Source: Candidatus Saccharimonadota bacterium (lineage in GTDB: Bacteria > Patescibacteriota > Saccharimonadia > Saccharimonadales > Saccharimonadaceae). From it: 36,228 nucleotides of DNA. The notes under the pieces are model-generated. The model ran no database searches. It saw nothing but the letters and a program-made list of their open reading frames with translations, and was not told where the DNA came from. The stretch covers positions 1-36,228 of the forward strand of contig JAFWMT010000001.1 of NCBI GenBank assembly GCA_017545525.1, written 5' to 3'. The translations under genes and the position numbers were made by a program. Positions within the stretch are counted from its first letter, which is position 1, and every line of letters begins with the position of its first letter. Positions 32,192 through 34,305 of the stretch are shown piece after piece.

Positions 32192-33023
32192 AGTTTTCAA
32201 TCAATTTTTTCAATTCAACGCTGTTTTTGCATCTGAAAGTAAGCGAGCGGCCGTGGATGAGGGCGGTGGCGTTATATTTCGCAGTAAGAGCATTTTCGTC
32301 TTTTATATATTCTCCGCGTTTAATTGCAGCGGCACTAGATTTCTTCTTCGTTTCAGCAAAGTAGCGTTCAACTTTTCGGGCAGTCCAGCCTTCTTCAACG
32401 ATTTTCGGGAGGATTTTTTGAATGGTCTTTTCGTCACGTGAAACGAGTGGGCGCATGACGCCTTCGCTAATCTTTTCTTTAACCATGATTTTTTTAGCTT
32501 CTTCGGGCAGGCTAAGTAAACGTAAAGTGTTTTGAATAGTGGTTTCGCTCTTTCCTACTTTGGCGGCGATATCTTCGGTACTTAAATTAAACTGGTTTTT
32601 TAATTTTGCGTAAGCGGTCGCGAGTTCGATTGCGTTCAAATCCTCACGCTGAGCGTTTTCGATGATGGATAATTCAAGACGATTTTGAGAATCTAGGGTT
32701 CGCACAATCGCAGGGATTTTTTTCAGACCAGCAATTTTCGAAGCACGCCACCGACGTTCGCCGGCAACAATTTTATATTTACCATCTTCTTTTGTAACGA
32801 CAATGGGCTGCAGAACGCCGTGCTCTTTAATCGAAGCAGCGAGAGCTTCGAGGGCCTCTTTATTAAAATCTCGGCGAGGCTGTTCCTCATCGCGTACAAT
32901 CTCGTCAAGCTTTATTTCTTTTAGCTGGCTTTCCTTTTTATCCTCAAGCGCTGTAGGGTCAAACTCGTCGTCAATTAACTCCGTTGGGATTAATGATTCG
33001 AAACTTCTACCTAAACCTTTCAT
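32184..33023 (-). CDS. parB: chromosome partitioning protein ParB
   Basis: CTPase clamp that loads at parS and acts with ParA in chromosome segregation. 279 aa. The N-terminal ParB/Sulfiredoxin domain has EIKLDEIVRDEEQPRRDF, LAASIKEHGVLQPIVV and VAGERRWRASKIAGLKKIPAIV (GERRxRA CTP motif), then ELSIIENAQREDLNAIE. The HTH follows: TEDIAAKVGKSETTIQNTLRLLSLPE. It overlaps parA by four bases (ATGA) with AAAGGA upstream, so it is coupled. The first 40 residues are acidic. A likely parS lies within its own gene. Confidence 0.96.
   Translation of the reverse strand: MKGLGRSFESLIPTELIDDEFDPTALEDKKESQLKEIKLDEIVRDEEQPRRDFNKEALEALAASIKEHGVLQPIVVTKEDGKYKIVAGERRWRASKIAGLKKIPAIVRTLDSQNRLELSIIENAQREDLNAIELATAYAKLKNQFNLSTEDIAAKVGKSETTIQNTLRLLSLPEEAKKIMVKEKISEGVMRPLVSRDEKTIQKILPKIVEEGWTARKVERYFAETKKKSSAAAIKRGEYIKDENALTAKYNATALIHGRSLTFRCKNSVELKKLIENLL
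32430..32445 (-). promoter_or_regulatory. candidate parS site inside parB
   Basis: The minus strand holds GTTTCACGTGA, 11 consecutive matches to the consensus TGTTTCACGTGAAACA; 12 of 16 overall. It encodes VSRD of ParB. In B. subtilis a parS also lies within the parB homologue spo0J. Confidence 0.55.
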
Positions 33024-33790
33024 TTTGTCCTTTCCTCCACTTCTTTAGTAAATTCTTTGTAGGCTTTGGCGCCTTTGCTAAACTTATCGTAAGCGCCGAC
33101 AGGAACGCCGTGAGATGGAGCTTCGGCGACGCGAACGTTGCGTGGAATTGTCGTTTTAAAGGTTAAATCTTTAAAGTATTTCTTAATTTCGGCGTAAACC
33201 TGGGATGAGAGAGAGGTTCTCTTGTCGTACATGGTCGCGAGCACACCAAGGAGCTTCAAGTTCGGATTAGCCTGTTTCATGACAAGTTTCATTGATTCGA
33301 GCAGTTGAGCAACACCTTCTAGGGCGTAGAATTCGGTTTGAACTGGTAAGAGAAGATAGTTACTCGCAATCATGCCGTTTACAGTTAATAATGAGAGCGA
33401 CGGAGGCGAATCAATAATAATGTAATGATAATTCGCTTCTATATCACGAATTGCATCACGAAGACGCACGAATTTGCGCGTCATACCAGTAATCTCGACT
33501 TCAGCGTTGGCGAGTTCTGGCGTCGCAGGAGCAAGATCGAAATTCTTGTATTTAGTCGGGCGGATAATTTCGGATAAATTTGCCTTATTTAAAATCACCT
33601 CGGTCATAGTTGAACCAAGAGAGGGGTCGTTCTTATCAACGCCGAGACCGCTAGTAGCGTTTCCCTGCGGATCGAAGTCTATCAACAAGGTTTTCTTCTT
33701 ATCTTTCGCGAGATAATAAGCGAGATTGACAGCGGTCGTAGTTTTCCCTACGCCACCTTTCTGGTTGGTTACACATATTACCTTCGCCAT
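33020..33790 (-). CDS. parA: chromosome partitioning ATPase ParA
   Basis: Walker-type ATPase that moves or anchors ParB-bound origins. 256 aa. Deviant Walker A KGGVGKTTTAVNLAYYLA (residues about 10-27), LLIDFDPQGNATSGLG, and Walker B HYIIIDSPPSLSLLTVNGM, with PVQTEFYALEGVAQLL. No N-terminal HTH, so it is the chromosomal Soj type. It precedes parB with an ATGA overlap. Near-leaderless start: TGCTATAAT, 10 nt, ATG. The presence of parAB suggests the origin of replication may be near, but no dnaA or origin is in the window. Confidence 0.96.
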   Translation of the reverse strand: MAKVICVTNQKGGVGKTTTAVNLAYYLAKDKKKTLLIDFDPQGNATSGLGVDKNDPSLGSTMTEVILNKANLSEIIRPTKYKNFDLAPATPELANAEVEITGMTRKFVRLRDAIRDIEANYHYIIIDSPPSLSLLTVNGMIASNYLLLPVQTEFYALEGVAQLLESMKLVMKQANPNLKLLGVLATMYDKRTSLSSQVYAEIKKYFKDLTFKTTIPRNVRVAEAPSHGVPVGAYDKFSKGAKAYKEFTKEVEERTK

Positions 33791-33809: not shown

Positions 33810-33830
33810 TAAAAAAGAAAAAGTAGCTAG

Positions 33831-33995
33831 AATATATGAGTTGGGCTTCCTCAACGGGTGAAACCTGCATCAAGATAAAAATTACAACGGATTAGGCGGA
33901 TTTGTTCGAAAATTACAGTTTTCTCACAAATCCGTAACCGTTGTAATTTTTATATGAGCGGTTTCACATGTTTCGGAGAGCCCAACTCATATATT
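33831..33995 (-). repeat. 165-nt rod-like inverted repeat after rplU
   Basis: Nested perfect arms: 33831-33847 with 33979-33995 (17 bp), 33858-33865 with 33960-33967 (8 bp), 33875-33890 with 33938-33953 (16 bp), 33897-33905 with 33926-33934 (9 bp), 33908-33912 with 33919-33923 (5 bp). That is about 55 bp separated by internal loops. CTAG at both ends extends the base and includes the rplU stop. A T-rich tail (TTTTTCTTTTTT on the minus strand) follows, so it may be a giant terminator, a stable RNA or a MITE-like insertion. Confidence 0.85.
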
Positions 33996-33996
33996 C

Positions 33997-34305
33997 CTAG
34001 GCGATTTTTGTGATTTCGATTTCAGTGTATTTCTGGCGGTGGCCAGTTTCTTTGTGGACACGTTTTTTCGCTTTGTAACGAATTACGCGGATTTTATCAC
34101 CCTTAACTTCAGGCGTTTTAACTTTAGCTGAAACTTTTACGCCCTTTACCGTAGGAGTGCCGACGGTCGTTTTATCGCCATCGATTACGAGTAAAGCGTC
34201 AAGTTCGAGCTCTTTAGTTCCTTCCGGGAGGAGGTCCACCCGTAGGGTCTCTTTTTCGGCGACGAGATACTGCTTCCCGCCGACGAGAATGACTGCTTTT
34301 TTCAT
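33997..34305 (-). CDS. rplU: 50S ribosomal protein bL21
   Basis: 102-aa 50S protein, normal length. AVILVGGKQYLVAEKETLRVDLLPEG, the VGTPTVKGVKVSAKV strand and KIRVIRYKAKKRVHKETGHRQKYTEIEITKI are diagnostic. AAGGAA before ATG; promoter TGGTATAAT at 34330-34338. The usual partner rpmA (bL27) does not follow; the gene runs straight into the rod-like inverted repeat, with its TAG stop in the base of that stem. Confidence 0.97.
   Translation of the reverse strand: MKKAVILVGGKQYLVAEKETLRVDLLPEGTKELELDALLVIDGDKTTVGTPTVKGVKVSAKVKTPEVKGDKIRVIRYKAKKRVHKETGHRQKYTEIEITKIA

Follow-up and report, generated by a model that had tools for sequence, protein, structure and literature searches.

A palindromic rod downstream of rplU in a Candidatus Saccharimonadota genome belongs to a dispersed repeat family with site-specific inverted arms

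To our knowledge, protein-coding palindromes are known chiefly from the Rickettsiales, and the Rickettsia palindromic elements (RPEs) and their Wolbachia counterpart were reportedly described by Ogata, Claverie, and co-workers. RPEs are long stem-loops of 105–146 bp that occur both between genes and in frame within conserved genes, with several families in a single genus (PMC2229807; PMC10969869), and a 12-bp terminal repeat is given for them (PMC2229807). Palindromes that lie within translated genes are also found in the mitochondria of Nematomorpha as long inverted repeats, both arms of which encode conserved protein regions (PMC6649704).

The element analyzed here was found in a stretch of 36,228 nucleotides of contig JAFWMT010000001.1 (GCA_017545525.1), hereafter the window, and RPEs appear, by description, to be its nearest known kind. 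Both are long stem-loops of similar length (the core here is 126 nt) with many dispersed copies and several families in one genus, and both have copies in frame within conserved protein genes that encode a common peptide (here the genes for ValRS, IleRS, ObgE, TruB, and a FemAB-like protein, as judged from sequence alone). However, the present element belongs to another phylum, its arms are site-specific and mutually matched, unrelated families use the same insertion points, and no common terminal repeat was found. The Correia, ERIC, and RUP elements are likewise short, palindromic, dispersed near genes, and non-coding or with small ORFs, whereas the present element has neither a fixed terminal inverted repeat nor a direct target duplication. 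Unlike the nematomorph palindromes, it is an inserted repeat family. No reports of such elements in Saccharibacteria were found in the literature searched, the coverage of which was incomplete; the phylum, the recurrence of unrelated families at the same gene positions, and the site-specific inverted arms are new here.

The rod after rplU and its repeat family

The 165 nt from 33831 to 33995 were predicted to fold as one rod, whose 69 pairs are arranged in stems of 17, 3, 4, 8, 2, 3, 16, 10, and 6 bp. The minimum free energy of positions 33825–34010 was −92.6 kcal/mol (z = −14.2), and none of 200 shuffled sequences folded equally well. The long paired rod reported by the first-pass annotation is thus real, and its pairs exceed the approximately 55 that were claimed. 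The features of the locus are as follows.

33020–33790, minus strand: parA-like partition ATPase gene, the next gene downstream (ParA-family models; ORF)
33831–33849, no strand assigned: left outer arm, private to the copy after rplU, pairing with 33976–33995
33850–33977, plus strand (the orientation of the R1 model): palindromic core conserved in the family (cmsearch with R1, 133.8 bits, positions 1–126 of 126)
33875–33953, plus strand: inner part of the core, with the 16-bp stem, the 10-bp stem, and the 6-bp apical stem
33978–33995, no strand assigned: right outer arm, on the side facing the rplU stop codon
33997–34305, minus strand: rplU, encoding 50S ribosomal protein L21 (TIGR00061, 85.9 bits; ORF)

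The outer stem comprises 17 perfect base pairs between 33831–33847 and 33979–33995, followed by three further pairs. A 2-nt bulge between the 16-bp and 10-bp stems (AGGCGG opposite CCGT) was kept across the family. The rod lies between rplU and parA and a single nucleotide separates its right end from the rplU stop codon; the rod had been described as starting within that codon, but as rplU is read from the minus strand, the rod begins just past it. The T-rich tail that had been placed after the rod exists as a T-rich stretch, but several bases separate it from the stem, and the rod itself drew no terminator-like call. The rod had also been thought to occupy the usual place of rpmA. This displacement was rejected, as rplU adjoins parA generally in the genus, with the rod present or absent, and the parAB neighborhood, which had been linked to a possible cruciform, was judged to be incidental.

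A second copy, 86% alike, was found in the same genome (720 kb in nine contigs), where a tRNA gene region lies on one side and a rubrerythrin-like gene on the other, the names of these neighbors being our reading of the ORFs. Four further copies were recovered from congeneric genomes. The common core was represented by a covariance model, R1, with 126 positions and 45 pairs, for which the E-values are rough. Among genomes chosen as one per species and mostly assembled from metagenomes, the R1 family was detected in 66 of the 118 genomes of a rumen Saccharibacteria genus of the Nanosyncoccus type, with up to 29 matches per genome, some of which represent both strands of one palindrome. The named relatives are Candidatus Saccharibacteria of the ruminant gut, including Candidatus Nanosyncoccus alces. 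When 247 genomes from 132 genera of the order were searched, only this genus matched. Viral contigs, scanned for an exact 19-base match, yielded none.

Pairs of copies with 97–100% identical cores were found in four genomes (G131, G108, G105, and G138), while their flanks and outer arms were only about half alike, which is the random level. The core of approximately 126 nt is mobile, dispersed, and recently copied within genomes. Between genes, most copies directly follow a stop codon, and both orientations occur relative to the neighboring genes, which were taken as ORFs of at least 90 codons and not from curated annotation. The search for further copies that the first-pass annotation had proposed as favoring a miniature inverted-repeat transposable element (MITE) was therefore positive in the genome itself and across the genus, and its MITE option proved right in kind, given the dispersed copies and the lack of the element at the rplU–parA site in the relatives that were read.

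Occupancy of orthologous sites and protein genes

The intervals between rplU and parA and between rpsG and gap contain, in different species, several unrelated palindrome families or short terminators, and terminator hairpins right after the stop codons are the usual state at both the rplU and rpsG sites. The element that follows rplU in the window was missing from the same site in the relatives that were read, although intergenic DNA between the species is too diverged for the empty sites to be aligned base by base. As most relatives have a short terminator or another palindrome there, the rod is presumably not needed at rplU, although its presence might by default retard the decay of the transcript or transcription itself.

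In other species, the rplU–parA interval holds at least three to four other rod families of approximately 200 bp, also with matched site-specific arms. The types are represented by loci L209 and L217 (ATAATGAGATTTAGACC), L125 and L161 (GAGCATTTGACGAACCC), and L205 and L183 (GAGCATTGAGCGAACCC). At L209, the remains of one rod family stand beside a full copy of another, and in a few relatives (L157, L163, L214, and L191), other sequence enlarges the interval, adding between 0.8 and 2.5 kb.

The family was also found in frame within long ORFs for valine-tRNA ligase (two copies in one gene), isoleucine-tRNA ligase, ObgE, TruB, a FemAB-like protein, and a P-type ATPase, and the genome of the window has an in-frame family copy in an O-antigen-ligase-like gene. 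A GC-rich subset encodes one recurring peptide, ISKHLRG..SHF.NGHGRE..TEI.GRVRL..C..DDREPSTLRN. Palindromes concentrate at hot spots in the linker of IleRS and the linkers of ValRS: in approximately 20 further species read for each gene, other palindromes without stop codons occupied the same position. In the genome of the window (G000), the IleRS gene carries a palindrome of another family (L394).

In many species, the same positions in the linkers hold in-frame palindromes of several unrelated families (L383–L402 for IleRS and L403–L422 for ValRS), with apparent nesting of one palindrome in the loop of another at L395, L397, L418, and L422. A divergent subfamily with arms of 26–37 bp was observed in frame in an O-antigen-ligase-like membrane protein of several species (L037, L039, L082, L090, and L117), L082 being from the genome of the window (C7:38556–38673).

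Origin of the matched outer arms

Detectable arms were present in 73 copies, with a median length near 20 bp and approximately 95% complementarity within a copy. The arms are private: the mean score of a left arm against the right arm of another copy was 0.59, compared with 8.1 within copies. The outer arms are thus unrelated between copies and nearly perfectly complementary within each. A gene ends inside an arm in 41 of 72 cases. Of the 18 tail-to-tail gene pairs, six have their two stop codons within the two arms, which leaves the paired genes with mirrored ends. At orthologous sites of different species, the arms differ, including changes in length that are mirrored in the opposite arm (L109 versus L121; L296 versus L298). 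For other palindrome families at the end of rpsG, the last rpsG codons recur inverted downstream (L297 GCGAGATAAAAAATAA; L321); as rpsG is conserved, the copy on the coding side must have come first. At L085 (approximately 1325–1400), the 3′ end of the element and its arm lie in a tandem repeat just downstream, perhaps a trace of copying slippage.

These properties were weighed against an ordinary MITE derived from an insertion sequence, for which a transposase would be supplied in trans and the arms would have become complementary later, only by selection or arm conversion. The dispersed, non-coding, and recently copied core fits such an origin, but the outer ends are not common to the copies (the cross-copy score above and identities of about 0.5), and the recent copies show matched arms already. 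Direct target duplication was not above chance, as direct repeats of at least five bases numbered one versus 1.7 expected outside the arms and five versus 4.2 at the core edge. In a transposase search confined to PF01797, the Y1 transposase was detected in five of 116 genomes; neither the genome of the window nor any genome with many copies was among the five. We regard an ordinary MITE as distinctly improbable. The repetitive extragenic palindromes (REPs) mobilized by RAYT transposases (PMC3733652) resemble the element as extragenic palindromes after genes with a bulged hairpin, but they are 20–40 bp long, and a REP/RAYT system was rejected on the same PF01797 search, with the Y1 transposase absent from the genome of the window and from those with many copies.

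The main rival to the explanation we favor is insertion of the core into the loop of a pre-existing host hairpin, either a terminator or a small palindrome, in which case the arms would be the stem of the target and older than the core. The narrow arm length and the terminator hairpins usual right after the stop codons at the rplU and rpsG sites are in its favor. A few coding sites that lack the element have short inverted repeats (L353, L360, and L350), which also fit such insertion but could equally be scars. Against it, hairpins of at least 15 bp unlike terminators were rare outside elements (nine of 27 in 644 kb) in comparison with approximately 20 distinct arm pairs in one genome, and the arms extend into protein-coding ends on both sides. 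A T run followed the stem at only 15 of 85 gene ends with an element, compared with 28 of 29 terminator controls; an intrinsic terminator was disfavored on this ground, and none was called at the copy after rplU. Insertion into an existing hairpin is considered unlikely.

We consider it probable that the repeat family to which the rod after rplU belongs is non-autonomous, of the MITE or protein-coding-palindrome kind, and that its arms arise by snap-back copying and its stems are kept by template switching. In such a process, the core would be copied to a new site and would fold as a single-stranded DNA hairpin at insertion or replication, and the 3′ strand would snap back and copy approximately 20 nt of adjoining DNA, leaving one arm as an inverted copy of local sequence. 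Later template switches would re-copy one arm onto the other and keep both the arms and the core stems matched. The element would be essentially selfish or neutral DNA, with insertions presumably tolerated after stop codons and also in flexible protein linkers, since a reading frame runs open through the core. The copies, the mobility of the core, and the locally matched arms were observed; the snap-back step we infer. More tentatively, and with doubt outweighing confidence, snap-back insertion may amount to an inverted target duplication of approximately 20 nt made without the usual transposase, in which a perfect stem is created anew with every insertion and the ends of neighboring genes can be rewritten. 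Homogenization alone falls short as an explanation of the narrow arm length.

Hairpins and compensatory changes are known to arise by template switching, which has been reported both to make and to maintain hairpins (PMC8794818). Such quasipalindrome mutations share with the present family the inverted local copies, the matched stems, and the multi-base compensatory changes, but they act on existing sequence, whereas here they are coupled to a dispersed core.

RNA-level and DNA-level pairing

The covariance analysis proposed by the first-pass annotation, which took compensatory changes as proof of an RNA, was run on the core. In an alignment fitted to the R1 model, and therefore leaning towards structure, 41 of 45 pairs had changed on both sides and 93% of the cells were paired, although copies cluster by descent and the counted cells are not independent events. 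None of 500 shuffles came close, and sliding the partners destroyed the signal. The covariation is overwhelming, yet its pattern fits DNA-level copying between the arms.

In an RNA under selection, G-U pairs should be tolerated and A-C mismatches should not. As a strand test on whole rods is confounded by the fixed G-U pairs of the core, arms and core were counted apart. The ratio of G-U to A-C was 50:31 for the core and 15:24 for the arms, compared with 108:10 over the varying pairs of RNase P from the same genus; the core ratio is slightly above 1:1 (p = 0.045). As the ratio is near 1 in both arms and core, unlike in RNase P, the pairing appears to be kept at the DNA level. Judging from these substitution patterns, the stems are probably matched by template switching between the arms and not by selection on an RNA, although selection for a DNA hairpin would yield the same ratio. 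The core may have a weak RNA component, and the conserved bulge suggests some selection on the folded form.

A structured RNA or mRNA 3′-end element (a rod RNA, an RNase III target, or a decay barrier), with pairing kept by RNA selection, would account for the strength of the covariation, the location directly after stop codons, and the conservation of the bulge and internal loops. It does not fit the G-U to A-C ratio, the copies in either orientation to neighboring genes and within ORFs, the lack of the element in about half of the genomes, or the unrelated elements at the same sites in other species. A search of the rod against Rfam gave no family at the gathering score and just weak microRNA-type matches below the cut-off. 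The stable, 6S-like rod RNA suggested earlier finds no backing in that search, in the in-frame copies in protein genes, or in the G-U counts, which have no RNase P-like excess, and a structured RNA is the least probable of the explanations considered here, with very little credence left to it. Action of the rod as an RNase III target, decay barrier, or terminator may be a side effect.

The family carries a warning for the usual proof of structured RNAs, as covariation can arise at the DNA level, and the count of G-U against A-C helps to separate the cases. Template switching seems to have left a natural record in the site-specific arms. The presence of several families in small Saccharibacteria genomes, repeatedly at the same IleRS and ValRS linkers, suggests that the phenomenon is not merely rickettsial, and Saccharibacteria offer more than 100 species in which protein-coding palindromes can be compared. 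If the snap-back reading is true, every insertion makes its own stem and may rewrite the ends of neighboring genes.
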